From: Moniliella sp. 'wahieum'
Lineage: Eukaryota > Basidiomycota > Moniliellomycetes > Moniliellales > Moniliellaceae
Reading direction: 5' to 3'
NCBI GenBank assembly: GCA_003971905.1
Contig: RSEE01000012.1
Coordinates: 923,171 to 987,170, forward strand
DNA length: 64,000 nucleotides
Below are positions 42,705-62,420 of this stretch, piece after piece. Under the pieces are notes generated by a model. It saw only the letters and a program-made list of their open reading frames with translations. It did not search any database and had not been told where the DNA came from. How positions within the stretch are numbered: the stretch's first letter is position 1; each line of letters opens with the position of its first letter. The position numbers and the translations under genes are program-made.

Positions 42705-43150
42705 CGCCAGCCTCTGGGCATGGGCGAGGCGAGGCGAGGCGCGGGATGGGGTGGAGGGGGAAAAGAACGCAGCCCGAGGGGGCAGCAACACACTGGGGGA
42801 TTTATTTGGCAGGGCAACATTCCGCTTTCAGATTCAGTGCATCATGCATCATGCATCATACATCATGCATCATGAACCACCGCCGTCTCACAATCTCCGC
42901 CTCATTTAAAAATGGAAGCCCACATGCGATGGGGCCAGGGCGAGCCATGCACAGAGGGTGGACGTGGTAGCGAGTGGAGGCAGGTCGAAGCGGCGTCGGC
43001 GGTGGAGAGGAGACAGGTCAAGCGAGCCCATACAAGAGCACAAATGGAAGGCGCACGCGCGCGGGCAGAGCACGGTGGTGTAATACCAGCGTCGCATGGG
43101 GTCTGTCCAGGTCAAACGCGTGGGTCTGAGGAGAAAGCCAGCCATATCGT
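42705..43150. other. Upstream region of the kinase gene
   Basis: This is the presumed promoter, containing a five-unit CATCATG array. Right of about 43,000 the sequence passes into the repeat-rich domain. Confidence 0.5.
42840..42874. repeat. Tandem heptamer CATCATG x5
   Basis: Five 7-bp units (the third is CATCATA). The junctions create ATGCAT palindromes. It lies 136 bp upstream of the kinase ATG. Confidence 0.95.
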
Positions 43151-43330
43151 TGCAGGAGGGTGTGGTGGTCATGCATTCATTGCCCGCCGGCCGGCGACTT
43201 GAGGGAGGATGGACGTACAGACGAAAAACGTAGGGAACGCGTGGGCTGCGTGTGCGCGGGCACTCAAGCCGCAAGCCAGAGCCATCATCAAAACACAAAC
43301 ACATCCCACAAGCAACGCCCTCAGAGAGAC
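43150..43330. repeat. Dispersed repeat segment A, copy 1
   Basis: This stretch resembles 48,185-48,330 and, more weakly, 45,780-45,850. Shared landmarks are TGGTCATGCATTC or TTCTCATGCATTC, then an Arg/Pro-rich stretch, then GCCAGAGCC and ACCATCA-type words. In copies 1 and 3 it sits beside degraded retroelement sequence, so it probably belongs to the same element. Confidence 0.5.
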
Positions 43331-43459
43331 AAAAGGGGACAATGTGCGCACGGTACGTCCAGCCTTGCCCACCAGGCCTTGGCCTCCGCTCTGCCGGGCG
43401 GCTACCGTCCCCGGTCAGCCTTAATTTCTTGCCCTGTCTGCTTGTGTTCTCATGGACAA

Positions 43460-43930
43460 TCACCGGGGCCAACACGGCGGCAGTAGCGGGGCATGACAAA
43501 CCTGCCGCGCCACCATCCGAGGTTGTCGTTGCCTGGCGGGGTGTTTAATCTGGTGCGGAGGGAACACCTCGGCAGATAGCGGGGCGATCATTGGCTTTCC
43601 ATCGGCTATTCTCCACCGTCCAGCGTATTCGTACCTGTTTAGCGCACTGGTCAGTACATTACCGTACATGATGAACGAATAGTGGGTACATCGTGCATGA
43701 CAGTGTGAAAAGGCATATTTGCACGCCTGTAAGCCGCCCATACGGGCTAGCAAGGAGAAAAGAGCCCTGTCCCCCTCAACGCTCAGGTCCGCTCCCCGGA
43801 TTGCCTTCAACCTCGCGCCAGAGCTGCTCGTCGAGATCTGGTGGAGCTGGTCCGCCAGGTGGTCTGTCCTCATAGAGCGGAGCAGGTGCCGCAAGTTCTG
43901 CTGCAGAGCCACGCGCAACACATTGCTGGG
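43460..43930 (-). pseudogene. LINE ORF2 C-terminal fragment, internally deleted
   Basis: Minus-strand translation gives ALQQNLRHLLRSMRTDHLAD and LKAIRGADLS, matching the region after the reverse transcriptase in the 52-54 kb copy. It then jumps to FSHCHARCTHYSFIMY and NRYEYAGRWRIADGK. Compared with the 52-kb copy, a few hundred bases between GGL and FSHCHAR are missing. There is no RT core. This is a dead, 5'-truncated and internally deleted copy. Confidence 0.75.
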
Positions 43931-46139
43931 AGGATGCTTATCCGGAACTGTGTGCTATCCAGCACCCCATCATCTATGTGCTGCCATGCGTTACCAATGA
44001 CCTGACAGCCCAAGTGGCCCACATTGCCACATGAAAGAGGTGTACTCGACATCGTTCTCGGGAGCAGTGTTGGCACGACGTCACTAACTGATTCTTCCGG
44101 CGTCCCTCCCGGACATACGCCATGCCCAGCGGACAAACTGTGCTGCGGATGGTCGCAGCAGGCGCGAAAAAGCGATTTCGAGCTAGTGGCGGGAGGGGAC
44201 GGGGGGGGGGAGGGCAACATAAAGCTGACCATGCACAGGAGTACGAGGCGGGGACACCCACATATCGCAAGCTTTGGCCCTGGACTTTTTGATAGTCATG
44301 TCAACTGACAGGGGCAATGGGGATGTGTCACAGCTGTGAATGGGGCAGTCGCCATCGAGAGGCGGGAGACGGTCATGGACGGACGGGTGGTCGTTCCCGA
44401 GCTGACAAACGATGGAAGGTTGACCGGGGTGGAACGAAAATGAGACGGGCATGCCAGTGACCAACTCTGCACCGGGTTCGGACGTCATTTCACCAACGTA
44501 CCGCATCCACCTCTTTCCTCGTTCTCTTACCTACAGCCACGGATCACCTTCGGCCACCCACCAACGGACTCGTGTGCTGCGCTCGTTTTTTTGCCGTCAA
44601 CGGAGCAACATGTCCTGATAAGCCCCGACTCCAGCGGTTCATGATCCTTGTTGCATTCCTTGTTTCGGCCTTGTTTGGCTTGTGTTTTTTCGAAGTGAGA
44701 TTGGTTCCTTCCCACCTTACCGACCTCTGCCAACATACACTTCGCCACCGTAGACGGCACGACTCGAATCTTCTCCATTCGGTGTTGGGCCTGGGGCAAT
44801 CCGTATGCACAGTACCTTACATATGCTCGTTCGCCTGTCACATATGCTCGTTCACCGGTCACCTGTCGTGGTCAGAACAGGGTAGCAGGAAATGTACTAG
44901 AGGCAACGCGGTGCAGGGTGAGGGAGGGGTGATGTGTGTTGCGGTAGGGATGAACTGTAAACTCCCAGGTGTGCCCCACGTGTCATTGGACCGCCCACCG
45001 GCTCAAGGTTTGGGAAAAGGAGGGTAATGGAGGGTCCAGGAGAGGGGAAGACAGGGATGATGATGGACAAGTGTATTCCCTTGGCTGGAGTTGGAAGATA
45101 GGTGTTGCGAGGCACTGAGTGAGCCAAAGATGGTCATGATCCCCCCCTTTCTTACACCCTCGGCGAGGCCACACTTGGAGGGCGGTCCATCATGGATTTG
45201 GCGTGTGTCCACGGCCTCGCAGCCGCTGCTTTTGGAATGGTGTTGGTGGGCCGACTTGATTTGGATCAGGATCGCTGGTCAGCGACTTCGGCAGCCCGGC
45301 TTCAGCTTGCCTCCGGTGCGCCAGCACCGCCATGCGCGTTCTCCACCGCATCGTGTCTGTGCATCATGCCCGAGGGCCACACGGTCGTGCCAGCGCCCCG
45401 AATTGCATGCCGTGGGTAAGGAATACGAGAAGGATCGGCAGGAGTTGGACTGGCGGGGATGGAGTGGGAGGGGGCGATGGTGGAGACTGACCTGGTGGGC
45501 ATTCGACGCTCAACCGGGCTACCCATTTTGTTGGGGTCGAATCGACCGCCAGCCACTGCATTGCTTCATTCGCGCAATTTACCACGACGCAAGCGACCTC
45601 CACCGTCCATATCGACAAGCAAAAACACTCGCCGGGCGTCTGCTGCCACCGCCAGCTGCCCTCCTTGTCCCCGATCCCGCCCCCATCGCGTCCAGACACC
45701 AAATAGACCATCCAACTATACCATCCGCTTGCCCCTCACACCCTTCGGTGTGGATCCAAGCAAAAGCCGCGTTCTAAGGGGTTCTCATCATGCGTTACAC
45801 ACACACTGGCCGCTTGGGAGGATGGACGTACGAAGCAATGCGCAGGCAACCCGTTATAGTGCTGTCACTAAGGTTGCTCACGACACAAGCCGGAGTCAAT
45901 GATCAAACGAACACGCCCCGCAACCATGACCGTCAGAAACAAGTTAACCCTTGCCCCCCGTCTGGCACATCAGGCGCTTCATGCGCGTTCGGCCCGGCCC
46001 ACCATCGTCCACCGCGGCTCTGTAACCAGGCCGTGATGGGAAGAGACCTTGGGCCAGCCTCATCGTTTCGGGCACCTACATACCCTCCATAGAGTGCCGG
46101 TGGTGCGGTGACGGGTGGAATAGCCTACTCCCCACCAAT
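43931..46139. other. Repeat-rich DNA without recognised genes
   Basis: This stretch contains short frames only. The part about 45,540-45,790 shares CTGCCACCGCCAGCTG and the following Cys/Pro-coding words with 47,990-48,180 and 54,565-54,590, so it is likely a further element fragment. The part 43,940-45,500 matched nothing I recognise. Confidence 0.4.
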
Positions 46140-47840
46140 GCGAAATGTCAGCAACTTGGGCCCCCGCAGAGAACATGAACCACGTGCACACCGACCAAAT
46201 TGGCGCACCGGGCCCAACCTAGGTCGGTAAGCCCAGAGAGGCGGGCACCGCGACCAAGCACATCACGAGGGACAGTCAACACCAGTTCAGCTTCTCATCC
46301 AGCAGGGCGTACACCCCCATGACTGACCCACATTCCTTGGGCTTAAGCGAGGCGATCAGCAGGTGCGCAACCCCTTCTTCCTCGGCACCAGGTTGCGGCA
46401 GAAGCTGGCCAAGATTCGACCCACATCTTCCAAATGGTCATCGATATCTTGCAACGCCTGTCTGGTGTTCTCATCACCCACGCCCCCGTCACCGTATAGA
46501 CAGCGGGTCCTGGCCAACCTTCCCGCCACCATTCGAGCTTGTCATTGCCTGGAGAAGTGTTTGATCGGCGGCGGAGGAAATGCCGTTCAGTATAGGGTGG
46601 CGATCACTTGCTTCATCCATCGCTATTGTCCTGCGCCTAGCGTATTGGTACCTGTTTGGCGGCCTGGTCAGTACGTCACTGGAGAACAAGGGTTGGGTGG
46701 TCCCGTACATGATGAACAGCAAGTGGATGTAGTAGCAGTGCCAATGTGGCGCAGAAAAGAGGGAAACTGTATTGGCACGTCTCGCACTTCGGCGCGGGCC
46801 GAATGACCGAAATGAATAGGGTGGTGCTATAGGCTTGCCGCATGCGAACAGGAATCAAAAGCGGACCGACGAGATGCCCCACCGCCTCACAGATGCCTTG
46901 ATGGAAGCGTCAACACCATCTTGGCCGCCACCACCGCGGGAGACAGGTGCGATATGAGCCCAGTCGCATCAGGGATACCAGCAGGCGCCAATGGAAGACA
47001 CCATATCCAACCCCGTCTTGTCAGTGCCTTGAATAAAAGCAACCGGAATACCACCACCGTTGGCACCCGAAAGCCTAAGGCACCCATATGGGCTAGCAAG
47101 GAGAGACGAGCTTTGTCCCACCTTCGACCAGCTGCATCACTCTCGGATCCGCTCCTCCCGGATTGCCTTCACATCACGCCAGAGCTACTCGCCCATCTAC
47201 TGGAGCTGAGCCGCCAGATCCTCCGACCTTATTGAACGGGGCAGATGCCGAATATTCGGTTGCAGAACCCCCTGCACCAAAGCAGACGGTCGCGCAGCGT
47301 CAACCCGTGCAACGAGGGTGCAGAGCCGCTTGTGGCCTAACCTCACAGCCGCGTCCTGGGGACGCAGCGGACGCGCCGTCCGCCCTAGGACGCCTGCTTT
47401 GACCTGGCGGTGCGCACGCGGCAAATCATCAATAGATGGTGGCCAGGCCCCCTCGGGATCGGCCCTGAGGGAGACGCAAACGTCGATCGAGGAGCCTCCT
47501 TGCCAGCCCGCCTTCGGAAGGAGCAAGCAAGTTGAAGGCATCGCGATCGTCGAGATGATCTAGATAGGCAATTCCAAAGCAACTCGCGACCTGTTTGAAT
47601 AGAAGCGGCACCATCGCGCTGACCGGCCGCGAGGCTGCTGCGTGCTCCATCACTCGAATGGATCTGAATCGGAACTGCCAGGTTGTCCGCTTCGGTGGCA
47701 AGTTTGGGCTGAGCGCACGACTGCCTGGCGTAGCGGCTGTCGGTGTCACGCGAGTGCCCGCCGGCCGAGGGTACGCGCACCACGGCAGGCGACACGATTC
47801 GCCACGATCTCCAGGCGGTGGGCAAGGCGGATGAGAAGGA
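46140..47840 (-). mobile_element. LINE copy with the RT core deleted
   Basis: Read on the minus strand, this is the same element as complement(51,600-54,300). From right to left: an ORF2 N-terminus (CAQPKLATEADNLAVPIQIH, then AYLDHLDDRDAFNLLA near 47,560, and a DLTRAH-like region near 47,410), then directly a post-RT segment (about 47,270-47,220), then the C-terminal extension (LFIMYGTTQPLFSSDVL about 46,700, RQALQDIDDHLEDVG about 46,430) and the conserved KLLTF-type block at 46,146-46,158. About 1.1 kb covering the RT palm is absent between 47,280 and 47,330. Many stops and shifts are present, so it is non-autonomous and decayed. Confidence 0.7.
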
Positions 47841-47966
47841 GGTGGTGGAGAGATGGAGAAGGAATCAGTTCAACTTGGCCGTGTCAGGCCTCAGGAGGCG
47901 CCAGCGGCTTGTTTTCACCCACCACAGGATCGTTTCAAGTTTCAATCGTGCAATCAGTCCTGCTCG

Positions 47967-47994
47967 GGTGACCGGTGACCGGTGACCGGTGACC
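47967..47994. repeat. Tandem heptamer GGTGACC x4
   Basis: Four perfect GGTGACC units, related to GGTTACC elsewhere. They lie between the ORF2 and ORF1 remnants of the 46-49 kb copy. Confidence 0.95.
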
Positions 47995-47999
47995 CCAGC

Positions 48000-48930
48000 C
48001 GCCTCCATCGCCCAGACGAACTAGTTCGGTAAGCACCACTCGGACTGCGTCTTTTGCCACCGCCAGCTGGCGTTTGTCCTGCTCCCGACCCACATCCCGC
48101 CCAGAGACGGGATCAACATCCCACTACGCACCATCGCCTCGTTCCCCTCGCTCTTAAAAGTAGACCAGAGGAACAACAGTCGGGTAGGGTGTGGTTCTCA
48201 TGCATTCCATGCCGACCGGCTGTTTGCGGGATGAACGCACGAAGAAAACCCAGGGAACCCGTGAGTACGGTCCCTCACGTCGCGAGCCAGAGCCGACCAT
48301 CACAGAAACATGCCCCTCAAGCAAGGACGACCGACACAACGCTTCATCTCGTCCAGCTCACGAGGTCTTAGGGTGCGCCCGGCCGCCCGGACCACTACGC
48401 TGGCTGGCTACTTTCGGCCCAGCTTGGGTAATTGGCGGTGTGACGGGAACGGGGTCGGCAACAGACCTCACCATTTTCGGGTACCATCCTGATGGCGAGG
48501 TTGGTGGCTCGAGCCACCTCCTTACGCCGAATTTCAGAGCAAAACGAGGCCACCACACCAATTTGACTGGACGCACTGCAATACTAGCCGAGGAGTCGTA
48601 CACCAAGAGTGCCTTGGACCCATTCGTGGCCAAAGTAGAGCACGCAGTCCAGAACGTTCTGCGGATACACATCTTGCTCGTCTTGTATTCTTGAGCAGCC
48701 AAAGCACCGCAAATGCCTAGCCCGGCTCCCAGGCTGTGGTTTTGCAACATGGTCGGCAGGTATACCATTGCTCGCACAGGCAAGAGTCCGAGCGGCAAGG
48801 CGAATAAGGAATGACAACCAACGCTTGCTCTCCACTGGCAGTGTGCCAAAAGCAGCCCTGGACAAACCACAGGCGTAGTCACCCTCAAGGAAGACCAAAG
48901 GGAACAGAGCTAGACATCCGTTGCACAAGG
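48000..48930 (-). pseudogene. Degenerate LINE ORF1-like (gag-like) remnant
   Basis: The minus-strand reading MLQNHSLGAGLGICG (about 48,750) matches LRNHSLGNGLGDYGG near 62,360, which precedes two CCHC zinc knuckles there. The following DCVLYFGHEWVQG (about 48,645) aligns with the first knuckle, but its cysteines are mostly lost. It lies upstream (on the minus strand) of the ORF2 remnant at 47.8 kb, the usual ORF1-ORF2 order. Heavily frame-shifted. Confidence 0.5.
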
Positions 48931-49589
48931 ATTGTACGTTGGTGCTTTGCTTTGGTCTCTGCGTCGAACAAGATGATCATCTCCTTCTTGCACAGCGCAT
49001 GTGCCGGCGGGGCGGCAACGAGTGGATGGCAGACACGGCCTAGGATTGGCGTCGCGCGTCTTGTCCCCGAATGACCACAGGGTTATGCCGTTCAATATGT
49101 ATAGGTTCTTTGGAGCACCTGCTTTAGCCATCGTGATCTGAGCGCGGGCGACAGTGGTGTGGGAGCGTCCAATTCGCTCCGGATTGTTGGATGGGTCGGG
49201 CTCTACCATACCACATCACAGCCGATGAGCTCGTTCGCCAATACGTTCACCTCTCTCCGCAAGTCAATGCCCTGGCCTGTCGAGCAAAGTCAAGAGGAGA
49301 GAGCAAGACTGATCTGCCCAAACCGACGGGCATCGGGATGCCAACATGGCCCTACTATTGATCGACCACATTGCCGCAATCGTCGCCCCGGATGACTTGC
49401 CTCGTGCCATTGCGGCTCACCTACCCAGGGGAGTTTGGCCCGTGCTAGATCCGTTTCTCCGCCTCGAGCGAAACAGATGTCGGAGGAGTTGCTGCAAGCA
49501 CGAACCGCAAAATGAACAACCGGTGGGGCAACGTGAGGGATTTCAGGCAGGGGTAGCCAGTGGTTTGATCCACATTTTGACTCGCAAGA

Positions 49590-50240
49590 GCATCAGTCAG
49601 GTGATAACATCCCCAATACAGAAGCCCACGATCTTGGGATGTTGCGCTTGCACATCTTGTACGCTGTGTTTGAAGTCGAGCCACGTTACACATTGGAACC
49701 TTTCTTGTTCACTCGGGCCCTTCGCGTCGATCGCCTTCTGTAATGAAATGCCCAGCCGATGCACAATCTGCCGTACTGTCCCTTGGACTTGATTCTCATC
49801 TGGGAGAAGAGTGGGGAGGGCACTCTAATAAGCTGCAGTAAAATATTCGCCCCAAGACGAGACGGAGCCTGGAAGCATATGACTTGGCAGCATCCACAGC
49901 GTCATCATGTTGGGGGATCACCAAGTGCGAAGCGATGCCGAACCATCAACATCTCCCACATAGCTGAAAAGCAGGCACTCATTTGATCCATGTTGTTGCA
50001 CTAGTGCTCGGACACTCTTGATGATCCATCTCTGTCTGCATACCCGTGCCTGTACGTTCCGGCCTGCACAAGCGCGTTTTGGTCAGTACATCATCCCAGA
50101 GGAAGTGTGAGTGGGGGGATCGTCGTCGTACATGTAAAACCAGTAGAGCGAATCATGGCCCCGGTAGTGAGTAGGGCTGCGTGGATGGTTCTTTTCGTCT
50201 TTAGTATGAATTGCGCTGACGGTCGGCAGAGCAATGTTGA
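49590..50240. repeat. Dispersed repeat segment B, copy 1
   Basis: Near-identical to 54,590-55,130. Shared blocks include TTGCGCTTGCACATCTTGTA (about 49,645 and 54,598), GTACGTTCCGGCCTGCACAA (about 50,053 and 54,970) and AGAGCGAATCATGGCCCCGG (about 50,144 and 55,052). Segment B follows the retroelement remnants at a similar distance in both places, so it is probably the 5' region of the minus-strand element. Confidence 0.8.
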
Positions 50241-50869
50241 GGTGACGAATGCGTTCGCCGTGTGGAAAGGATTGTGGATCGTGGAGGGCTTTTCAGTCTA
50301 CGCCGCAAGTGAGTCTGAGAAGAGTTTGGGCCTGCTGCTGGAACAAGGCTGGGCGTTCGACCCATTCGGTAAGTCCTGGGTGGGGATCAATGCGGTTGCC
50401 ATGTTGAGGAACACCCAGCCACTCTGGGAGAAGAAGAGCTGGTCGGTCTGCGTGGGACAGCGGAGGCGTGGGGGCCGAGTTGGGGAAGGGAGAACAAAGG
50501 GGGGAGCAATGGGGCCACAACACTGCTGCGAGTGGCAATGGGCGAGGTGGAGGATTCACTTTGGCACAGCTCGGGTTAGGTGGGCGAGACAGTTACTTCA
50601 ACGTTCCGTATTCAATCGAGATTGAGGCTCATTAACCCCGTCTCTATCCTCTTCAGGGGGATCACGAGGGAGATGAAGAGCAGCCGCGCGACCTGTTCTA
50701 CGCGCCCGTCCCGCACAACAGAGCAGCATCGAGCAGCATCTGCTCGTCGCCAGCCGTAGAGGCCTTCCCTCCAGGCGCATCTGCAGGGGGCGGGAAGCGT
50801 GCCCTGCCCCTTTGCCAATATTCCCTGCATTGACGCCTTGCACGTCTGGCTGGGGGGACGTGGATGCCT

Positions 50870-51780
50870 CTAGAGCTGCGTCCAGCTAATGGGAAATGCT
50901 AGCAACTTGGGCGCCAGCAGAAGGGTATGAACACGTACAGGCATCACTACCATCGAAGTTCCGGTACCCCATAGGTGGGCGGCCTCCAGGCTGATTTGCA
51001 TTCCGCCACTGTGCATCGTGCCGACCTCGGCAATCCAGCCGCCGTCTCGACGCCAGTCCGGGTACTGACTGCATCGACAAGGATGTGCAGCAAAAAGTGG
51101 AACCCACGGGCATGCCCCCCCGTGAACACGCACCGATGTGGTGTGCAGCGAGAGAAGGGTGAAGAGGCAGCAAGGACACGAGGCGTAGCAAAGCTCCAGC
51201 GTGTTGGTGGTGGAGAGGCAAAAGCGGTCCCAAACGCAGCCAGGCCAGAATCGGCGCGGGGCTAAGTTTGGGCGGTGTGGCTGCGGCCATACGGAGGAAC
51301 TTCTGCGCGCCAAGCACGGCGGCAAACGCACGTTCAACGTTAACCCCGCGGCGGGAGCAGCCCTTTCTGCGCGTCCCGCGCAGAGGCAGTCGATTGCGGT
51401 TGCTCGTGGGGCTGCTCGGTTTGCTTGCGCCACCGCCATCTGGCGCGGTTGGCGCAGCCGCGGGTGAGTGCGAAGCGTGCCTTGTCTTTGCCAATGGTGC
51501 TGCCTATGGCCAAAGCGCCCAGCGGAGGTACTCTCTCCTTGGGCGCGTTGCACGACTGTTGAGGCACGTTGATGTGGCAACGGCTAGACGAATGTGGGCG
51601 CTCCGACGGCGCCTGGCCAATGCCAAATGTCAGCAACTTGGCCCACCGCAGAAGGACATGAACAACGTACAGGTATCCCCACCAATAAAGGTGGCGCTCT
51701 GGGCCCATCGTAGGTCGGTAAGCGCAAAGAGAGGCGGGCACCGCGGCCAAGCACATCCCGAAGGACAATCAGGAGCGGCA
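50870..51780 (-). mobile_element. Element 3'-side region with two KLLTF-type blocks and segment C
   Basis: This region lies downstream (minus strand) of the 52-54 kb ORF2. The minus reading gives MCLAAVPASLCAY, YVVHVLLRWAKLLTFGIG (about 51,690-51,620) and, further on, MHSGGMQISLEAAHLWG (about 51,015-50,970) and HTLLLAPKLLAFPI (about 50,930-50,890). The first block recurs at 46.15, 56.43 and 59.32 kb. The second (segment C) recurs at 57.84-58.27 kb. No known domain was recognised. Confidence 0.55.
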
Positions 51781-52043
51781 CAGCTTTTCATCCTGTTGGT
51801 CCCTCATCTCTGACCAACATTCCTCGGGCTTGGGCGAGACGACCTGCGCATGCGCAGCCCCTGTTTCCTGCACCACTTTGCGGCAGAAGCTGTCAATGGC
51901 ATGATCCATGACATATCTTGCACCCCAAGTTCTTGCAATGCCTGTCCGTTGCGTTCATCTACAGCGCCCTCGGTTAACACTAGGACGGGCCCTGGCAAAG
52001 CGGCCCTGCAACCATCCGAGGTTGTCGTTGCCTGGCGGGGTGT

Positions 52044-54199
52044 TTAATCTGGTGCGGAGGCGATACCTCTGGATTGAGCGGGGGGATCACTTGCTTTTCC
52101 ATCGGCTATTCTCCACCGTTTAGCATATTCGCACCTGTTCAGCGCACTGATCAGTACATTACAGCACAGCAAGGCTTGGGTGGCTTCGTACCTGATGAAC
52201 AGATTGTGGGTATATCGTGCATGACAGTGTGAAAAAGGATTTGTACGTCTGGACTTCGGCGTGGTGGTAAGGCGGCAAGGCAAGTGGGGGCGCGAGAGAT
52301 GTGCCGGATGTAACAGAAGCGGACCGACGAGGTGCCGCATCGCGTCAAGGTGTGCCTTGACCACAGTGTCAATTCCATCTTGGCCACGGCACCACCCTGG
52401 GGGGCAGGAGCGATGTGATCCCAGTCTCATCAGAGGTACGAGCAGTCCCACTGCAATGGAAAGCATTGTATCCAATCCCATCTTACCAGTAGCTGTGGAT
52501 GGAACCAACCGGAATGCCACCACTGTTGGCGCCCGAACGCCTAAGCCCCCATTCGAGCTGGCAAGGAGAAAAGAACCCTGTGTCACTTCTGCCCGTCCTT
52601 CCCGCTCGGATCCGCCCCGATTGCCTTCACCTCGCGCCAGAGCTGCTCGTCGATCTGGTGGAGCTGGTCCGCCAGGTCGTCCCTCTGCATGGAGTGGAGC
52701 AGGTGCCGCAGGTTCTGCTGCAGAGCCACTCGCAACAAGAGCAAGCGGTCCTGCAATGGCATACCGTGCAAGGAGGGGTAAAGCGCCGCCTGAGCCTCCA
52801 CCTTTGCCTGCAGAAAAGCGAGCCGAGCTGTCCTGGGACCCACGCACGAGCCAAGGAAGGTGCCGCCCTCCAGACGCAACTTCTGCGTCGAGACAGTCTT
52901 CGTCTTGCCCAGGTTGAGTTCCAGCCCCGTCTTGCTCTGCGCCACGACACGCGAGACCAGCTGCAACGCATTGGCGTTGCGGGACAATACATAAGTGTCG
53001 TCCAAATAGGACACCGCCAACCCATCGTCGCCCAAAGCGCGCTGCGCCTACTCGAGCATACTGCGGATGCCGACAGAGAAGAAGGGCCCAAAGGGGTCGC
53101 CCTGCCTCACTCCCTGCTGGCTCAGGAGGCTTCCAAAGCCGCCTACACCAACCAACACCAACTGGGTGTGCTTCCCATAAGACCAACGAAAGAAAGGAAG
53201 GAGCTCGGGCGAAGAGTCACTCACCGCTTGGGCTACCGCTGCCCGGTCGATCGAGTTGAACGCATTCTTAAAGTCCAATGACAGCACATAGTTGAATTTG
53301 GCCCAAGCTGGGTCCCTCTCTTTCCCACTACCCAAACGATCCACAAGCCGCACGATCGGCTTCACACCGCCCATGGACTTGACGCCGAACTGCGTGTGGA
53401 GTAGAGGAGTAACCACATCGAAATGAAGAAGTGCCTTGGCCATTACGCGGTAAAGTAGCTCACCACCGGCGATCGGTCTCACTCCACTGTCAGGCTTCGC
53501 AAGCGCCGCCCACCTACTGGTGCACAACAGCCAAGCACCCGGACACGTCCCATGAAACATGGCACACGCCATGGCTTTGAGAGCTGCTCTAAAGTCATCG
53601 TGCTTTAAAGCCAACTGGAGAAGAGGAACCAACCATCCGCCCACGCCTCCGCCCACGTCCCGGGAGAAGCTGCTTGCCGGGCGATAGATGTCCTTATCAT
53701 CCACACTCCAAAACCGTTGGGGCTCACGGGCGTCTGCCGCTGCGGTGTCACCTGTTAAACCAGGCCGGGCTCGCTCCGACATTTGCCGAACCACCAAACC
53801 AGCCAGCGGGTTCTTCGGGCCTGCAGGGTGCTTCGCGCGCAGGGCCTCTACCGTTTCCGGCCCAAAGCCCACCGCCGCATCCTGGCGATGCAACGTGCGC
53901 GCCGCACGCCCCAGCATGCCCTCTTTGACCTGGCGGTGTGCACGGGTCAGATCATCGGAACGCTGGCGCTCTGCAGAGCCCTTCTCCATAGCTGGCGGCC
54001 AAGCCACCTCCGGATACGCCTTGAGGGTGGCACAAACGTCGGCCGAGGAGCCCCCCCGCAAGCCCGCCTTCGGCAGGGCAAGCAGGTTGAACACGGCATA
54101 ATCGTCGGGATGATCTAAGTAAGCTCGTCCCAAACGACCGGCCGCCTCCTTGAATCGACGCCGCACCATCGTGCTGCCTGGCCACGAGGAGCAGTGCAC
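52044..54199 (-). mobile_element. Non-LTR retrotransposon ORF2 (reverse transcriptase), one in-frame stop
   Basis: This is the best-preserved minus-strand LINE copy. From 54,199 to 52,583 one frame is open except for a TAG at 53,048-53,050. The N-terminal region holds DLTRAHRQVKEGMLGRAART and KHPAGPKNPLAGLVVRQM. RT blocks in order: KPDSGVRPIAGGELLYRVMA (about 53,490), VLSLDFKNAFNSIDRAAVA (about 53,285), QQGVRQGDPFGPFF (about 53,115), VSYLDDTYVLSR (about 53,010, the YLDD active site) and LELNLGKTKTVS. Thumb-like LQDRLLLLRVALQQNLRHLL follows. After a shift near 52,600 the C-terminus (GGLGVRAPTVVAF, LFIRYEATQALLCCNVL) runs to a stop at 52,044. This is a LINE-type RT of the kind common in protists and fungi. 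I see no endonuclease domain. Confidence 0.9.
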
Positions 54200-54370
54200 T
54201 CCACCACTCGAATGGATCCGAATCGGAATTGCCGGGTTGTCCGCTGCGGCTATCAGATTGGGCTGAGCACAGCCGGCACCGACTGCCTGGCTTAGCGCGT
54301 GCGCGCCTGAGCTGTTGGTGTTACGCTAGTTCCCAGCGGCCTCGTTCACGCGCATTACACCAGGGGGTAT

Positions 54371-54470
54371 ATGGTTCGCCACGACCTCCAGGCGGCGGGC
54401 AATGCGGAGGAGAAGGTGGCGGTGGAAAGGTGGAGAGGGAAGAAGTTCAACTTGACCGCGTCAGGGGGGG
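54371..54470 (+). repeat. Conserved plus-strand open block
   Basis: The plus-strand reading MVRHDLQAAGNAEEK and VERWRGKKFNLTASG matches IRHDLQAVGKADEK and VERWRRNQFNLAVSG at about 47,800-47,900. Minus-strand frames are closed here. It lies just beyond the 5' end of ORF2. It may be part of an element-encoded plus-strand gene or simply conserved DNA. Confidence 0.4.
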
Positions 54471-54589
54471 GTCAGCCGCTTTTTTCCGTCGCCCAGACAA
54501 ACGCATTGCGAGCGACGAGCGCCGACGCAGCGGCCAAGACGCACCGCTTGGATCGCGTCTCTTGTCACCGCCAGCTGCCCCCTCCGATC

Positions 54590-55130
54590 TTGGCACGTTG
54601 CGCTTGCACATCTTGTACGCTGTGTCTGAAGTCGATCCACGTTACACATTGGAACCTTTTCTTGTTCGCTCGGGCTCTTCGCCTCGATAGCCTTCTGTAC
54701 CGAAATGTCCAGCAGACGCACAATCTGCCCCACTCTTCCTTCGACTTGATTCCCATATGGGAGAAGAGGGGGGAGAGGACTCTAATCTGCAGCAGTCGGA
54801 TATTGGCCCACAGACGAGACGGAGCCTGGAAGCATATGACTTGGTAGCTTCCACAGGAACCACTAATATCTCCCACATAAATGAAAAGCGGACGCTGGTT
54901 TGATCAACGTCCTTGCTCTAGTGCTCGGACCCTCTTGATTATCCATCTCCGTCGGCATACCCGTGCCTGTACGTTCCGGCCTGCACAAGCGCGTTGGTCA
55001 GTACATCATACCAGAGGAAGTGCGAGTGGGGATCGTCGTCATACATGTAAACCAATAGAGCGAATCATGGCCCCGGTATTGAGTAGGGCTGCGCGGATGA
55101 TCATTTTCGTCTTTAATATGAAAGGCGCTG
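54590..55130. repeat. Dispersed repeat segment B, copy 2
   Basis: The duplicate of 49,590-50,240. Compared with that copy it carries small deletions (for example around 49,900-49,960, absent here). Its similarity drops abruptly near GGCGCTGACC at 55,130. Confidence 0.8.
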
Positions 55131-56400
55131 ACCTGGCCTGTCGGCGCGGGGCAGCGGAGGCATGCAGAATGCGAGTAACAAAGGGAGGCGCAATGGTGCC
55201 ACAGCCCTGATCCGAGTGGCGGGCAAAAGGGGCGACGCGGAGGAGCCACTTTGGCACAACTCGGTTGAGGTGGTGGTCGCCAGCCCACCTGACCAACAAG
55301 CGTGTCCAGCGAGGCAGTCACATCAATGATCGGTACCCAATCGAGAGTGAGGCTCATCGACACTATCCAATCCCGTCTCCATCCTCTTCAGGAATCCAAC
55401 GAGGGAATTAAGAGCAGCCGCGCCCCCCCCCGGGTTGGTTCTACGCGCCCATCACGCCGCCTTGCTTCTCTTGGTTAGGACCTGCGGTACACATGCGCTC
55501 GCGGGGACAGTGATTGTTGCGGGACAGGTGGAACGAGACAATTCGAGCGACTAACTGGGCCGCTGCTCCAACGACGGCTGCCGCCATGACAGCCGCTATC
55601 TTTGCATGCACAAGGGCATGCCGCAAGAGCCGTACCAGGGGCTCGCCGTGTGGGTACCCGCCCCAGGAGCAGCGGGGGGGCGAGGGTTGGGGAAGGGGGA
55701 ACGAGGAAATGTGAATGATAAGGAGTGGCGAATGATCAGGGGGTGGCAGACAGAGGATGTGAGGCTGAGGATGCACTCCGACACGGCTTGGGGGTGGGGG
55801 TGGTCGACAGCCCACCCGAATGGCAAGCGCGGTGAGCCAAGCGCCGCATCAATCCTCGATATTCAATCGAGAGCGAGGTTCACTGACGCCAATCACACTA
55901 TCTGCACCCTCTTCAGGGGTTCGAGATGCGGCGCCCTTCATCCCCCCTATATGGCAACGGCAGGCCGGGTCTCGTGCACGGGTGAAGGGATGGAACTGCG
56001 GCTGGGCCGGCCTGCTCGGTCAGCAAACGCGTTCTCTGGCAGCAGGCAAACCTGTCGCCGCCGACCCCACCTTCTTTCGGAGTGCCGTGACAGTGCGATA
56101 GACAGCCCACTGCGGCCGCTCGTTCCCCGCACCCCGTCTCCACGTCTGTACCGGACCCGCATAACAGAACAGCATCGAACAGCATCGAACAGCACTTGTG
56201 CCTTGATAGCAACTTGAGGGCCTTCCTTGTCTGCGGAACCGAGGGAGTGCGAAGCCGGACTTGCTTGGCTTGTGGTGCAGCACCGATAGCCAGAAAGGAC
56301 AGCGCCTTGTCGGCGTACCCTCCATACTTTGAATGACTGGCTGGGGGCGTTGACGTGACGAGGTGAAGGGCTGCGTGATGCATCCGACCCGATTGCCTCC
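55131..56400. other. Repeat-rich DNA, no gene recognised
   Basis: Contains a C run near 55,425 and sequence related to 50,300-50,860 (TTCAATCGAGA, GAGGCTCA, CTCTTCAGG and GAACAGCATCGA words), so this is probably another partial copy of the same region. No coding domain was recognised. Confidence 0.4.
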
Positions 56401-57450
56401 AGGACTGCGCCTGATCATTGAGAAATGTCAGTAACTTGTGCCACGACAGAAGAATATGGACCACGTACAAGCACATCCACGCAAAAAAAAGTTGGCGCGC
56501 TCGGCCCATCCTGGAACGGCAATCCTCGAGAGGGGTGAGCGCCGCGACCAAGCACATAATGAGGGCTGAAAAGTAGCAGCACTTCTTTGCATCCCGTTGG
56601 TCGCATACGACCATGCTGCCCCCCATTCCTCAAGCTTGAGCGAGGCCATCTCCGGATGCGCATCTCCTTCTTCACCGACACAACGACGCGGTATAGGCTT
56701 GCAATGGTTTGATCCGATCCGCGTCTTTATAATGGACCTCAAACTCTCGTGCAAAGCGTGTCCATTGGGCTCATTGGGAACGATGCCAGGCCAGTTGGGC
56801 GGCGGGACCGCCACCATCCGAGGTTGCCACTGCCTGGCGGGATGTTTAATTTGGTATCAAGGAATGGCTCTGCAGATGGTGGGGTGATCACTTGCTTGTT
56901 TCCATCGGCTACTCGGCTCCGGCAGGCTTATTTGTACCTGTTTAGCGCGCTGGCCAGTACATCGTGGGACAACGAGGCATGGGTGCTTTCGTACCAGAGT
57001 AACACATAGTGGGTCTAGCGGTACCAACGTACCAACGTCGGGCAAGGCAGCGTAAAAATGATTTGCACATCTAGCAATTCGTCCTGGCCATGAGGCCAAA
57101 AGGAAGGCGGCAGCACGATAGGCCTTTCGGATGTAAACGCAACAGAAACGGAACGACGAGGTACCACACAGCGTAACAGTGTGCCTTGATGGCAGCGTAA
57201 CCCCGTCTTGATCGAAACACCGCGCCGGGGGACCGGTACGAGAGCCCAGCCTCGCTCGTCGATGAAGGAAGCAGCGGTACGAGCAGCCTCACAGCAAAGG
57301 AGGGCCCCATATCCAACCCCACCTTACCAGTGCAACTGCTGGCGAAAGTACCGGAATGTTGACCTTGTTGGCACCCGCATTGCAAAGGGAACACCCATAT
57401 CCATGTCAAGAATGCTCCCCAGGTTGATGTGGCAAACGATTGTTGCTGCA
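56400..57450 (-). mobile_element. LINE ORF2 C-terminal fragment
   Basis: The minus strand reads CTGKVGLDMGPSFAVRLLVP (about 57,330), matching ATGKMGLDTMLSIAVGLLVP at 52,470. Then comes HYVLLWYESTHASLSHDVL and SALNRY (about 57,010-56,940), NEPNGHALHESLRSI (about 56,770) and LYVVHILLSWHKLLTF (about 56,475-56,425). It therefore covers only the post-RT half of ORF2 and the 3' region. Decayed, with shifts and stops. Confidence 0.7.
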
Positions 57451-57839
57451 CCCCACTCCGACAAGCCCAAACGCACGCACAGCTGCTCAGGGGTCATGGG
57501 TCCACTTCTGCGTACGCCAGTTGCCACCAAGCCTTTGTGGCAAATGGTTGCTCTTGGGAGCCCAAGCACGGCCGATTTGGGGAGACATCTAAAATCGATA
57601 CAAGCAGGTTGTCGGCGCTCCATCGGGGAGTGAGGTTGGCGCGCTGCCGTTGGCCAATGTGCAACGCAAATGGGAGGGCGGAACATACCAGCAAATGAAT
57701 CATCCGCGAGTGGTGTTGCTTTTGGTTGGGGCGCCGCTGGCTCTGAGAGGTGTGCACGATGCATGCTGCTGACCAGCAAAGGGGAGTGGGCAATCCCTAC
57801 TGCCGCCCTCGTTGCCACCACACGCACAATCCAGTTGTC

Positions 57840-58270
57840 ACTACCCCAAGGGTGGGCCGCCTTCAGGTTGATTTGTATTCCGCCACGCATCGTGTCGACC
57901 ACGCTTTGGGCAGAAGCAGCCGAATCGGGGAAAACCCGATCCACGTTTGCACAGAAGGCCAGGTTCGTCGTACCGATGACTCGCGATGGGAGGGTGAGGG
58001 AACAGCGCGCCTTGCTCGGCCTGTTGTTGGAGCCGACCTAGGCCTGCGTCCCAGCCGCGCGCTCGCATCGGGCGCTGCTTCAACAAGGATGGGCAGCAAG
58101 AAGCGGAGGCAAGGGGCGCCGCGCCCCATGAGCACGCATCCGGCTTCGTGCGCAGCAAGAAAAGAAGAAGCTAGGACACGAGCTGCAGCAGCGGCCCCAC
58201 AGTGCTGGTGGTGGCGCAGAATCAAAAGCCGCGCAGACGCGACGAGATTAAATTCAGCGGGGTGCTAGGG
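57840..58270 (-). repeat. Dispersed segment C, copy 2
   Basis: Resembles 50,965-51,275: GTGGGCCGCCTTCAGGTTGA against GTGGGCGGCCTCCAGGCTGA, then TCCGCCAC, ACAAGGATG and GGTGGTGG words. The minus reading MRGGIQINLKAAHPWGS (about 57,890-57,845) parallels MHSGGMQISLEAAHLWGT of copy 1. Most differences are conservative at the protein level. Confidence 0.6.
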
Positions 58271-59060
58271 TTGTAGATGGTGGCCGCAGCCAATGTGGAT
58301 GAATTGCAACTGCGTGCGCGCGCCAACCGACGCGGCGGCCGCAACGCGCGACCCAACGCTCGCCGCGATACCGAGCGGCCCAGCGCTGTGCCGGGGGGTG
58401 CATCCGCACCCACACCAGCACCACACTCCCGCCCCTGGACCCTCCCCGCGCGTGGCTGCGCGGCCCGTACCCCCTCCTTGGCTGGCCCGTCCTTACTGGC
58501 CTGACTGGGCCACGAACCAACCCACGCTGCCGATTCTTGGGGACAGCAGTAGGCGTTTGCCACGCTCGGCAGCACAGCGCACCAAGCAAGCGGAGCCTTG
58601 TCTACCCACCCGCCAATCCGACACACAGCGCACCCAGTGCGCCTGTTGGTCGTGCGTCCTGCGTCCCCTCGCGTCTCGTCCCCGCCTCCCGCCTTCACCG
58701 CCGTCGTCCCCGTTGCCCCCGTCGCCGCAGCCACTTGGCTACCCCCCTTGGCCGTTGTCCCGTCCAGCACCATGCTCTGCAGCTGCTTCGCGTCGAGGCC
58801 ATGTCCATGGTGTTGTCCTGCGAGCTGCTCCTCGGACTCCGCGAGGGCGCTGAGCGCGGAGGCGGTCGATTGTTGTTGTTCGTCGGGGTGCTCGCTGTGT
58901 GTCGCCTAACATCTCTCGTTGCGGCCAAGAAAAACTACCAACCTAGTCTCTCCCTTTCGCACGAGCAGCAGCCGCTCCAGACCCGTACTGCAGCCGGAAG
59001 CGCTGCAGACGGCGTTAAAGGCGTCCGCTGTTAACCCAGAAGCACGTGGCTATCCCCTAG
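58271..59060. other. GC-rich stretch without recognised gene
   Basis: Long Arg/Pro/Ala-rich frames occur on both strands, typical of GC-rich noncoding DNA. A CxxC pair (minus strand CAVCRIGG, about 58,630) hints at a decayed zinc-binding region, but this is weak. Confidence 0.35.
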
Positions 59061-59748
59061 GGGCGGCGCCCGGCCGCTAAAAGAGCCGGATGCAGGTCCG
59101 ACACCGCCTTCGCACGTCTCCGCCCGGCCAAATGGCAATCAGGATCGTCCGAGCAGACCCCACCGAAGGCGGAGTGGAGCGGGTACTTTCTTCGCCAGTG
59201 CAGCTGCCAATCATCAAGTGGGGCAGTGCCTCCATGGCCACCGCGTACGCTCGTATGCCTGGAAAAGGGGTATTGATCCAGGCAGATTCCTTGGTGGGGC
59301 GTTTGATCTACTCTGATTGTCAGTAACTTGGAATGCACAAGAGAGCGTGGGTAACGTACCGCCATCACAATCTGGGGCAGCGGGGCAGCGACGGTCCTAA
59401 GCGAACAATGCCGACAGTAGCCTTGCCACGCGCGGATATCCCAGTCAAGAGGAACATTCGTAGCTGGAGCAAGGTAGACGAGGGGGCAAGGGATGAAGCA
59501 GAGATGTGCTCGTCAACACAGCCATGCATAGTGTGCCAGCCCAAGGAGGCAACTCTATTACTCAAGGAGGCTGCTCCTTGGGGGTGGGCCATGCCTTCCA
59601 TGGCGACAAACAACTTGGGGGTCCAGTGCTCGGCATCTTGCGAAGCTTCGTCAAACTGATAAGGCAAAGTGTATCCAGCAAGTATATCGTCCCCTCCGGT
59701 TCCTTTTCTGGTGGGGTCGCGCCACGACCCTGAAAATCATCATCATAC
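59060..59748 (-). pseudogene. Element C-terminal block fragment (KLLT type)
   Basis: The minus-strand frame of about 100 codons reads WTPKLFVAMEGMAHPQGAAS, MFLLTGISARGKATVG and THALVHSKLLTIRV. It aligns with the KLLTF-type block at 46.15, 51.63 and 56.43 kb, in the same orientation. It abuts the plus-strand RT copy that begins near 59,749. Confidence 0.5.
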
Positions 59749-61400
59749 ACGTACGTTCTTGGGCGCCAGATACGCCAGTCGGTCCTCCGTATCTACCAGT
59801 CGCTGCAGGACAAGCACCCGACCGGCCCGCGCAACCCGATGGCTGGTATTGTGGTCCGGCAGGTCGCCGAGCGCCCGCCGCCGACGCTGACCGGCGACGC
59901 GATCGAGGACGACGAAGGCAACCCGCTGGAAGATCTCGAGGTTCAAGACAAGGATGTGGACCGTGCTGCTGCTAGCTTCTCCCGCGACGTGGGAGGCGGC
60001 GTCAGTGGCTGGTCCCAGCCGCTGCTGCGGCTCGCACTCCAACATGACGACTTTAAGGCGGCTGTCAAGTCCATGGCCACCGCCATGTACGCCGGCACCT
60101 GCCCCGGCGCCCAGCTGCTCTGCACCAGCAGGCTCACGGCTCTTGCCAAGCCGGACGGCGGTGTGCGCCCCATTGCCTGTGGGGAGCTCATCTACCGGCT
60201 CCTGGCCAAGATCCTCCTGCTGCACATCGACGTCCGCTCGCCCCTCTTGCGCACCCAGCTGGGTGTCAAGTCCAAGGGCGGCGTGGAGCCGATTGTGCGG
60301 CTGCTGGACCGCGTCGTCACCGGAGGCGACCAAGGCAACGGCCCCGAGTGGGAGGACCGGTTCAAGTATGTGACGTCGCTCGACTTTACGAACGCGTTCA
60401 ACAGCGTGGACCGACATGTGATGGCGCAGGCCGTCAACGACCAGTGCCGCGAGCTGGTGCCCTTTTACCGCTGGGCATACGGACAGCACACGCAGCTGGT
60501 CGCGGGCAGTGCGGGGAACGTGCGCACGATTGTCAGCCAGCATAGCATCCGGCAAGGCGACCCCTTTGGCCCCTTTTTCTTTTCCGTCGCGATCCGGGAC
60601 ACGCTCGCCGCGGCGCCGCGCGCTCGGCGACTCGGGTGTGGTCGTGTCCTACCTGGACGACACCTACCTGCTGTCGCGCGCGCCCAACGCACTGTCGCTC
60701 GTGTCGGGCGCCCTGCGGCACGGAAAGACGGGGCTGGCGCTCAACATGGCCAAGACCAAAGTCACCAGCGTGCAAGAGATGCAGACCCAGGGTGCCAAGG
60801 TCCTCGGCTCGTGCATTGGGCCGCGGGACGCCCGCCTGGCCTTTCTGCGGGACAAGATTGCGGACCAAGCCTCTCGCTACCCCGCCCTGCATGGCCTCCT
60901 GCTGCAGGACCGGCTGCTGCTCTTGCGGTCGTGCCTGCAGCACAACCTCCGCCACCTGCTGCGCTGCATGCGGACTGACGATCTCGTGGATGAGTTGCGC
61001 GAGATTGATGTGCAGCTGTGGCAGGAGGTCAAGGCCATTCGGGGCGCCGACCCGAACGATGTGGAGGGACAACGGTGGGACGAAGCTCTTCTTTCCCTGC
61101 CCGCCCGGCGGCGGGCTTGGCTTCTTCTCCCCACCTCGACGTTGCTCCCCACGCGCGGGCGGCCTCGTGCGAGGAGGCGGATGTGTGGGTGGAAACGGTG
61201 ATTGCTGGCTGCCGACCGAGAGAGAGAGAGAGAGAGACGCGCCAGCGGCCACCCGACAGTCGCAGCGGGAACGGACGACCGCCATGTTTGCCGACCAACA
61301 GGCGAAGCTACTGACCGAGCTGCCGCCCGAGTTGGGACACCGGCTGCTAGAGAACGCCGAAGCGCTCAACCGGACGTGGATGTCGGTAGGCCCACCTTAA
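59749..61400 (+). mobile_element. Non-LTR retrotransposon ORF2 (reverse transcriptase), 5'-truncated, plus strand
   Basis: The only plus-strand LINE copy. It enters the ORF2 protein at TYVLGRQIRQSVLRIYQSLQ / KHPTGPRNPMAGIVVRQV. RT blocks: KPDGGVRPIACGELIYRLLA (about 60,150), VTSLDFTNAFNSVDR (about 60,373), HSIRQGDPFGPFFFS (about 60,541), a break near 60,615, VVVSYLDDTYLLSR (YLDD at 60,650-60,661) and LALNMAKTKVTS. Then LQDRLLLLRSCLQHNLRHLL, SLPARRGGLGFFSP after a break (about 61,095), and APHARAASCEEADVWVETVI. A tail ends near LLENAEALNRTWMSVGPP (stop about 61,400). This is the most complete RT in the window. The missing N-terminus suggests 5' truncation at insertion, typical of LINEs. No endonuclease was recognised. 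Confidence 0.88.
61220..61237. repeat. (GA)n microsatellite
   Basis: A GA/AG dinucleotide run interrupts the C-terminal coding region of the plus-strand LINE copy. Confidence 0.85.
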
Positions 61401-61989
61401 GAACGACAAATGGCATATGCCCGGTGCGTGGAGCCGTATGCTGGGCCTGGGGGGGAGGGCAACGCAGAGTAGACGCGAGTGGTGAGCAGAATAGAAGCAG
61501 GAGGGAGGGGGATGTGCATGCAGACGTATGTCCAACGCTGCAACAACGCACCTGCTTAGTAGTGGCGTTTACTGTGGTGGCAGTGTTGGTGGACGTGACG
61601 GGCTTGGTGGAGGAGCGACGTGTGAGAGCGTGTGGCGATGGCTAGCATGGTGCCCCAGGCGACGTTGGTGAACATGGCACTGTTTTCTTTGCACTGGGAA
61701 GGAGCTTCGCAGGGGTTTAGACCGGGAGGGGTGGACCAAAGGCCGCTTCGAGCAGCCCCGCCCGAGCTGCCCCCTCACCCTCGCTGCCGGCCTTCTCGCC
61801 CTCCGATCCACCCCACTCGCTTCCCATTCCGTCCCCTCCTTCCTTGCCCGACTCCAACCCATCGTCGGATCCACCCGGCAAGGGGACGAAGGCCGCCTCC
61901 GCAACGGGTTACGCCCGCCCCCATCGCGGGCCTCGCTGGCGTCTTGACCGCCGCCAAAAGACTCCCCCTCCGACTCGGAGGGGAGTAGT
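61401..61989. other. Junction between opposing element copies
   Basis: A GC-rich stretch between the end of the plus-strand ORF2 and the minus-strand ORF1 remnant. It may be their 3' parts; nothing was recognised. Confidence 0.35.
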
Positions 61990-62420
61990 AAACACGACCA
62001 CGTCTCTTTTCAGATGAACCACACGCGCTTGTCCGGGACCATCCAACGCGGCAGCCGCTGCTGCCACTCCCATTCGCTCCGACCCCTTCGCCACGATGTC
62101 TTTTGTGCTGCATTCAACTTGCTCGGGGGGTACCCCTTTCTTGCGAGCAATCGCCCTGATCGCGAATCAATCACGTCCTGGCATTGGTCGCGTCGGTGAC
62201 CGGGGATACGGCACAGGCCACACTTTCTTGCCCCAGTCGCCGCTTGTGGCAGACCGCTGCCGTATGCCCGAAGCGGGAGCACCACTCGCCTTGTCGAGGG
62301 CGCATCGTCGTCGTACAAACATTCTTGCCCCGCCGTAGTCGCCTAGCCCGTTCCCTAGGCTGTGGTTTCGCAACGCAGTCGAAGGGACAAGCGCATCCCA
62401 CAAGGCACATCATACCTTCA
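61990..62420 (-). pseudogene. LINE ORF1-like fragment with two CCHC zinc knuckles
   Basis: The minus strand reads LRNHSLGNGLGDYG (about 62,365), then knuckle 1 at 62,249-62,290 (GEWCSRFGHTAAVC; the first Cys position is Gly), then knuckle 2 at 62,181-62,222 (CGLCRIPGHRRDQC, an intact C-x2-C-x4-H-x4-C). The knuckles are separated by 26 bases, so they are out of frame by one. A basic tail follows to about 62,010. Tandem CCHC knuckles are usual for LINE ORF1 or gag proteins that bind element RNA. Confidence 0.65.

Follow-up and report, generated by a model that had tools for sequence, protein, structure and literature searches.

The window analysed here, the terminal 64 kb of contig C12 (987170 bp), carries a nest of LINE copies between 43 and 62 kb. 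The nest probably consists of the decayed remains of a LINE lineage whose insertion target is the 28S rRNA gene, these genes being subtelomeric and transcribed inward, with the resulting arrays scrambled by exchange between chromosome ends. The best reading of this lineage is that of a fungal, R2-like, 28S-targeted LINE with an unusually long target duplication.

Setting and composition of the nest

C12 breaks off inside a 28S rRNA gene, with a 5S rRNA gene downstream of it on the same strand (Table 1). The first-pass annotation had placed the nest directly beside rDNA and proposed that it may mark a chromosome end or an rDNA-boundary target; rDNA does lie on its right side, and the nest does mark a chromosome end, the window ending where the contig ends. 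All 40 scored 28S matches elsewhere in the genome (72 candidates) lie at most 18.4 kb from a contig end and are transcribed inward. Together with the 28S fragments at the boundaries of the nest, the terminal position of all these matches identifies rDNA as its relevant boundary and target. The rRNA, judged by eye, and a Zn(2)-Cys(6) domain point to a fungal host; also by eye, the assembly appears indel-rich.

Self-blastn recovers the repeated same-strand segments described earlier, within 43.5-57.4 kb and at 65-81% identity. The minus-strand copies are partial and frameshifted and look composite, with a 5' part containing the reverse transcriptase (RT) (W), a block of ~930 bp that may or may not belong to an element, and a 3' endonuclease part (V); W and V could be a single rearranged element. 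An RVT_1 match at 53.05-54.3 kb on the minus strand (E 8e-4) falls under Pfam's cut-off, and more RT and endonuclease fragments occur at 52.6-53.0, 49.0-49.9, 47.1-47.9 and 43.7-43.9 kb. The ~930-bp block, previously noted as the KLLTF region, is present four times in the window, once only partially; searches outside Pfam gave no coding function for it. For the ORF1-like part attributed to the copies, the one candidate found is a zinc-knuckle N-terminal fragment. The single opposite-strand copy is real, and the same piece also occurs in the C14 and C69 ends. It belongs to a young family (family A; 96% DNA identity), whereas its relatives on the minus strand are older and have ~60% RT identity to it, which rules out the single LINE family that had been proposed.

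Table 1 Features of the nest and the adjoining rDNA (positions in the window)
Feature	Position	Strand	Evidence
Innermost fragment: RT C-terminal end and part of the repeated ~930-bp block	43487..43921	-	self-blastn and family A comparison
Second W copy, RT fragments	47071..47881	-	tblastn and family A comparison
Decayed version of the 70-bp 28S fragment, separating two nest units	48706..48762	-	nhmmer, 32.2 bits
V: pieces of the RT C-terminus and the endonuclease, on the outer side of the inner 28S fragment	48817..49868	-	62-66% DNA identity to family A; tblastn
~930-bp block after RT	51605..52535	-	repeats at 56403-57377, 46135-47027, partial at ~43487-43729
Nest copy W, reverse transcriptase region	52543..54325	-	RVT_1 E 8e-4; 60% amino acid identity to family A
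Stretch of nest matching the C3 chromosome end	55455..59805	-	83% over 4466 bp
Inverted internal piece of family A, without both ends	59794..61393	+	96% over 1605 bp to the 28S-inserted copy on C2
Zinc-knuckle N-terminal region, outermost nest copy	62046..62289	-	64% DNA identity to the 5' part of family A; CCHC spacing by eye
70-bp 28S fragment (LSU positions 2279-2348), outer nest boundary	62322..62389	-	blastn and nhmmer
5S rRNA gene, downstream of 28S	63036..63152	-	Rfam RF00001, 59.6 bits
28S (LSU) rRNA gene, 3' end; contig stops inside	63705..64000	-	Rfam RF02543, 84.7 bits

A young relative inserted in 28S rRNA genes

Family A, which shares 61% RT identity with the nest copies, is found within 28S genes. 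At the filled site on C2, the LSU sequence is complete up to ...GAGGAACACCGG, is interrupted by a LINE of 4.05 kb in sense orientation, and resumes from GGGATAACTGG; the element is flanked by 225-bp 28S duplications that are 99.1% identical. Uninterrupted 28S on C53 and C14 represents the empty site. The 3' junction of family A with 28S occurs at eight places among 21 matches (C2, C33, C30, C24, C69 and three times on C158), and the 5' junction at four among 17 matches (C2, C33 and twice on C158). On C158, copies of this same 28S piece at 2711, 6954 and 11182 have family A sequence in between, forming a head-to-tail array. C2 and C33 are letter-identical across the 4209 bp compared and may represent a single event or a duplicate assembly of one locus. 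Family A inserts into 28S with junctions that recur, but independent events are fewer than the junction counts, and few independent filled sites have both junctions. Family A 3' ends away from 28S amount to four matches and one partial match (C222, C30:609535, C1:385012, C63:117076, C127). A search of family A for known self-cleaving ribozymes gave, besides LSU, only sub-threshold Twister-sister and 5_ureB_sRNA matches deep inside the element.

The endonuclease of the lineage is probably restriction-like (REL). Family A contains the motif C-x2-C-x8-H-x3-C-x9-RHE...E...RTD, which resembles the REL pattern printed in PMC12857005; its RHE, its RTD and the 16-residue spacing to the next D deviate from the printed patterns. 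The same CCHC-RH core was reached by 3 of 200000 shuffles, a figure to be read with RHE, RTD and one spacing off the printed pattern. The RT piece has three matches in the PDB, all to R2 proteins and weak (E 0.024-0.075), while the endonuclease piece has none there, and the N-terminal and endonuclease pieces match no Pfam family. A scan of four pieces of family A, which cover the N-terminal half in part, gave no APE endonuclease match. Fold predictions were too poor for use (pLDDT 40 for RT, 38 for the endonuclease). Canonical R2 insertion is at TAAGGTAGC/CAAATG; the junctions of family A, at GGGATAACTGG and GAGGAACACCGG, fall elsewhere in 28S, with GGGATAACTGG ~530 bp downstream of the R2 site as placed by this motif.

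28S fragments at the boundaries of nest units

The outer boundary of the nest, with its 70-bp 28S fragment, recurs at 18 further loci; the match spans 110 or more of the 121 query bases at 12 of these and is weaker or partial at the other six. It is present in 19 of 25 matches, and the remaining six are the 28S genes themselves. Sequence X, between the 5S gene and this fragment, is a conceivable LINE 3' tail, though not recognisable as LINE. The inner 28S fragment is found at 26 loci including the window (25 others genome-wide), of which 24 are terminal and 5'-outward, two short contigs being counted by their rDNA side. The best match to reversed sequence, our nhmmer control for this fragment, scores 7.5 bits; the match at C24 (6.8 bits) is not above it. 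The window holds two such fragments, fewer than its partial nest copies. By analogy, the 70-bp piece may be the target duplication of W and V copies; no complete W or V element was found within an intact 28S gene.

The polarity of the nest had been likened to that of HeT-A/TART-like or telomere-targeted retroelements. The boundaries found carry 28S fragments, and a scan for exact hexamers between 43 and 62 kb found a single TTAGGG at 48368 and no tract. End-addition elements that maintain chromosome ends would share the inward 3' ends and the head-to-tail order. However, several contig ends are capped by TTAGGG-type repeats outside the nest block, at odds with the end addition that replaces telomerase repeats in HeT-A/TART/TAHRE, and the copies are decayed and located inward of rDNA. 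With 28S at the junctions read and no telomere tract within the nest, we rejected this explanation, to which we assign almost no weight.

Another candidate is a CRE-clade LINE like MoTeR, FoTeR or Cnl1, which would target telomere repeats and lie with its 5' end outward. MoTeR1, FoTeR and Cnl1 are likewise fungal; they have a REL endonuclease, and a REL-like motif is present in family A. Polarity and subtelomeric location are alike; FoTeRs and MoTeR1 have their 5' end toward the chromosome end, according to PMC12857005. These elements are associated with telomere repeats, whereas the boundaries found here are 28S sequence, the nest is without a TTAGGG tract and its young relative, family A, sits in 28S. 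The 28S junctions largely refute telomere-repeat targeting, which we rejected as very unlikely.

Sharing between chromosome ends

Among RT segments of at least 55% identity, 46 of 47 lie at most 30 kb from a contig end and 41 of 47 point 5'-outward, in a tally that took in 115 of 116 search rows. With all scored 28S terminal and inward, the suspected concentration of close relatives at ends, mostly in one orientation, is borne out. When 15.7 kb of the nest is compared with other contig ends, ten of them cover 32-95% of it, with mean identities of 77-88%, several of the compared stretches being only 10 kb long. The nest is therefore a shared subtelomeric block, and exchange between ends probably accounts for much of its spread. 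The first-pass annotation had named segmental tandem duplication in place of repeated insertion as a refutation of its reading; this holds in part, a segmental block common to ends making up much of the nest.

A stronger form, in which one old composite repeat was multiplied by segmental duplication and end exchange with repeated insertion minor, draws on this coverage and on the order W, block, V and 28S piece, which recurs at several ends. However, the blocks are fully collinear in none of the ten ends, and the 28S fragments as unit boundaries, the young family A insertions and the array in 28S are left unexplained. We consider it improbable as a full account; it complements insertion into 28S and does not exclude it.

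Proposed mechanism

On the 28S-insertion reading, the lineage would insert into 28S rRNA genes that adjoin many chromosome ends and whose transcription runs inward. The proposed mode of insertion is target-primed reverse transcription in which the cuts in the two strands lie far from each other; each insertion would therefore remake its target, and arrays could extend head to tail. Array polarity would be set by the direction of the 28S gene and not by the telomere: dead copies mostly point one way, on this view because the 28S genes in which they appear to have landed face inward at many chromosome ends. Later, exchange between different chromosome ends would have spread and scrambled the arrays, and telomere repeats may have healed ends that had broken. 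Subtelomeric rDNA of fixed direction would be a simple reason why LINEs can seem telomere-oriented without targeting telomeres. More tentatively, very long target duplications might carry the target site along, and self-growing head-to-tail arrays at rDNA-capped ends might act as a buffer that renews itself between the rDNA, the telomere and the genes, an idea that we hold to be possible though doubtful.

Comparison with known systems

In Aurantiochytrium, rRNA genes adjoin chromosome ends. The same is described for Encephalitozoon in PMC10158259, whose main text uses the word 'retrotransposon' 0 times. As far as seen, the reports on both organisms are without LINE arrays.

R1-type elements of arthropods resemble the nest in its 70-bp 28S fragment, which starts at TGTCCCTATCTAC, the R1 target duplication. 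R1 has an APE endonuclease, unlike family A with its REL-type-looking one. R9 of bdelloid rotifers has a target duplication of 126 bp, which the title of its paper terms exceptionally long; in family A the duplication is 225 bp and the host is a fungus, and the two are compared here by description. Like family A, R9 targets 28S at a site other than that of R2 (PMC5035012).

Titles and abstract openings of the literature searched, a set outside subscription papers that implies no absence from print, name no fungal 28S-specific LINE. If the reading is true, a LINE of fungi that targets 28S, with a REL-type endonuclease, another site and a 225-bp duplication, would broaden the host range of rDNA targeting and extend its mechanics, both in the distance possible between the two strand cuts and in the way arrays grow.

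R2, the 28S-specific LINE of animals, differs from family A in its 28S site (GGGATAACTGG in family A), in the 225-bp duplication and in the fungal host; the authors of PMC5035012 state that they never found R2 outside animals. Family A and R2 share the 28S target, the sense orientation, a putative restriction-like endonuclease motif in the case of family A, and an element 3' end that resembles 28S; such 28S-like 3' UTRs are described in that paper for seven R2 families (PMC5035012).

Ribosomal DNA at contig ends

The window forms the terminal 64000 bases of contig C12 (987170 bp; C-numbers denote contigs and L-numbers stretches of contigs). Both its rRNA, read by eye, and the window's Zn(2)-Cys(6) domain (E 3.9e-5) identify the organism as a fungus. 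A search of the 69.5-Mb genome (223 contigs) with a piece of the LSU (28S) gene gave 72 candidates. All 40 matches that were scored are no more than 18.4 kb from a contig end, with transcription directed inward, and 32 sit on contigs of at least 100 kb. By our own count the 40 represent 34 contig ends, a figure in which a single rDNA locus split by the assembly would count as two. TTAGGG-type repeats occur at contig ends (e.g. C3, C19, C24 and C118), and an exact 24-base telomere pattern begins within the first 5 bases of six contigs; the count of this pattern alone proves nothing, since its 14 matches are fewer than the 58 of the reversed control.

Features of the window and examples of the terminal ~140-bp repeat
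Feature	Location	Strand	Remark
28S (LSU) gene	63705-64000	minus	window and contig end fall inside the gene
5S rRNA gene	63036-63152	minus	same strand as 28S
Same-strand repeats	43.5-57.4 kb		65-81% identity
Inverted repeat, partner	59.97-61.06 kb		one such repeat
RT	53.05-54.3 kb	minus	recognisable, below Pfam cut-off
RT	59.7-61.0 kb	plus	recognisable, below Pfam cut-off
Inner 28S fragment	48706-48762		between units
~140-bp repeat	L010:34-470		
~140-bp repeat	L020:5-864		
~140-bp repeat	L021:37-193		
~140-bp repeat	L093:1-200		also at other contig ends

28S fragments bound the nest copies

The first-pass annotation had described several copies of a LINE on one strand next to the rDNA, with one opposite copy, and self-comparison of the window bears this out in part, with same-strand repeats and one inverted repeat. 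Translated and DNA comparison also finds RT, RT C-terminal and endonuclease fragments in the nest. Its outer boundary is a 70-bp fragment of 28S (LSU positions 2279-2348, starting at TGTCCCTATCTAC), within about 40 bp after which the zinc-knuckle region of a nest copy begins. All 25 candidates for a 121-bp outer-junction query were scored; six correspond to 28S genes and the other 19 to the junction, which in 13 cases is matched over at least 110 bases. Each of the 18 junctions on contigs of known length has the LINE 5' end toward the contig end (5'-outward) and lies within 19 kb of that end, and the nineteenth, on C174, was found by hand to be likewise 5'-outward and within this distance.

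Further 28S fragments, more decayed than the outer ones, lie between units in the window and at other ends. Eleven of these inner fragments score 17.6-33.9 bits and that of C24 scores 6.8, the best reversed-sequence control reaching 7.5. The inner-junction query found 26 loci, 22 of them terminal and 5'-outward by a scripted rule; those on the short contigs C201 and C208, which carry rDNA or an outer junction at the opposite side, fit too, and those on C54 and C20 are interior. On C14, one unit's endonuclease match reaches as far as the 28S fragment belonging to the next unit.

A young relative inserted in the 28S gene

Family A, a young relative of the nest copies, lies within 28S. From the start of C2 the order is 18S, 5.8S, 28S to ...GAGGAACACCGG, LINE, and 28S again, which resumes at GGGATAACTGG and continues to the true 3' end of the gene. 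The 4046-bp insert is in sense orientation relative to 28S, carries zinc knuckles and RT, and has a CCHC-RHE endonuclease-like end; the flanking 28S copies are 99.1% identical across 225 bp (one mismatch and one gap). C33 matches C2 at equal coordinates over the first ~9 kb, letter-identical across the 4209 bp compared, and the two diverge beyond, a likeness that reflects either recent exchange between ends or one locus assembled twice. The A-28S 3' junction occurs at eight places among 21 matches to its query; four others are LINE ends without remaining 28S, another is short and partial, and eight are 28S without the LINE end, including two upstream duplicates (C2, C33). The 28S-A 5' junction makes up 4 of 17 matches, and on C158 three 28S pieces are spaced 4.2 kb apart with A sequence between them. 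The gene is uninterrupted on C53 and C14.

At its 3' terminus, A closes with ~22 bases that resemble the 28S tract immediately upstream of the insertion site, and the LINE share of this tract is uncertain because the four family A ends outside 28S also match a few bases into GGGATA. The duplication is therefore about 225 bp long, or as much as about 247 bp. The C53 28S gene has a LINE-like version of the tract, as would be expected if a copy had been lost through recombination between the duplicates. Around GGTGCCAGAAAA in uninterrupted 28S genes, the tract TGCACCCC, elsewhere a mark of the 3' terminus of family A insertions, is present in C53 (read) and closely matched in C219 (score only), possibly as an excision or conversion scar.

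Genome-wide distribution of the LINE

With the window RT as query, 99 of 198 candidates were scored and gave 116 matches. We tallied 115 of these rows, 47 at 55% identity or more and 68 weaker; they count segments rather than copies and include blocks common to several ends, and so are not independent. The proposed gathering of copies at chromosome ends, mostly in one orientation, holds for the close relatives: 46 of 47 are no farther than 30 kb from a contig end, spread over 18 ends, and 41 are 5'-outward. The corresponding figures for the weaker rows are 33 and 37 of 68, and no more than about 19% of the genome falls within 30 kb of contig ends (calculated by hand as 223 x 60 kb of 69.5 Mb). 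Three of the six exceptions among the 47 are the inverted piece in C12, C14 and C69; the others are on C92 (interior), C102 (3'-outward, at a distance of 11 kb from the contig end) and C211 (16.8 kb long, with its rDNA at the opposite end). Interior relatives at C73:212319, C2:979458 and C5:1233677 have RT identities of 40-47% and open frames of 914-961 aa.

Probable insertion and exchange between ends

The 28S junctions, the long duplication, the sense orientation, the array and the terminal, inward-directed rDNA are direct observations. From what is established for R2, a bottom-strand nick would be made at the 3' junction, followed by target-primed reverse transcription and a cut of the top strand about 225 bp downstream. 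Because the duplication contains the target site, a second insertion would yield a head-to-tail array, and the 5'-outward polarity would be set by the direction of 28S.

The first-pass annotation had named a single segmental tandem duplication as the alternative to repeated insertion. When 15.7 kb of the window nest was compared with ten other ends, several of them stretches only 10 kb long, the ends shared 32-95% of it (C14 95%, C69 91%, C53 84%, C3 start 84%, C19 75%, C2 73%, C29 61%, C118 61%, C3 end 50%, C41 32%) at mean identities of 77-88%, and none of the ten was fully collinear with it. Neither LINE end is retained in the inverted family A piece, which occurs in C12, C14 and C69, was not seen in C3 and C53, and appears to be a captured fragment and not a fresh insertion. 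The segmental alternative thus holds in part: exchange between ends accounts for their likeness, and insertion for the nest boundaries and polarity.

Other structures at contig ends

Many contig ends are capped by a ~140-bp tandem repeat within CCCTAA-like tracts. Its query gave at least 85 matches, with 40 of 92 candidates scored, and the 58 rows tallied on contigs of known length are all no farther than 14.6 kb from an end and share one orientation. The repeat meets the rDNA/LINE block at varied breakpoints: before 5S (C3), inside X, the sequence between 5S and the outer 28S fragment (C118), inside the nest (C29) and inside 28S (C129, C112). Telomere repeats are joined straight to X at the end of C19 (L025/L026) and to a nest copy's N-terminal part at the start of C24 (L022), as if broken ends had been healed.

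At five ends (C175, C211, C24 end, C80 end and C41 end; L038-L041, L044) the 28S gene stops at or near CACTGTCCCTATCT, which we take to be the R1 site, and other sequence follows; 24 of the 40 scored 28S matches end at about this motif. In C41 the motif shows a small duplication where 28S stops, and a degenerate 5S-like stretch lies 400-450 bp beyond the stop in C211, C24, C80 and C41.

Comparison with known systems

The target duplication of R9 is reportedly 126 bp long. The title of the R9 paper, as cited in PMC2861651, reports an exceptionally long duplication, and PMC5035012 places R9 at another 28S site. The latter paper also describes 28S-like tracts within R2 3' UTRs and states that its authors never found R2 outside animals; the R2 hosts given in PMC4640811 are animal phyla. 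In PMC12857005, the REL pattern is given, and FoTeR and MoTeR1 combine 5'-outward polarity with telomere-repeat association. In Encephalitozoon, according to PMC10158259, rRNA genes adjoin telomeres.
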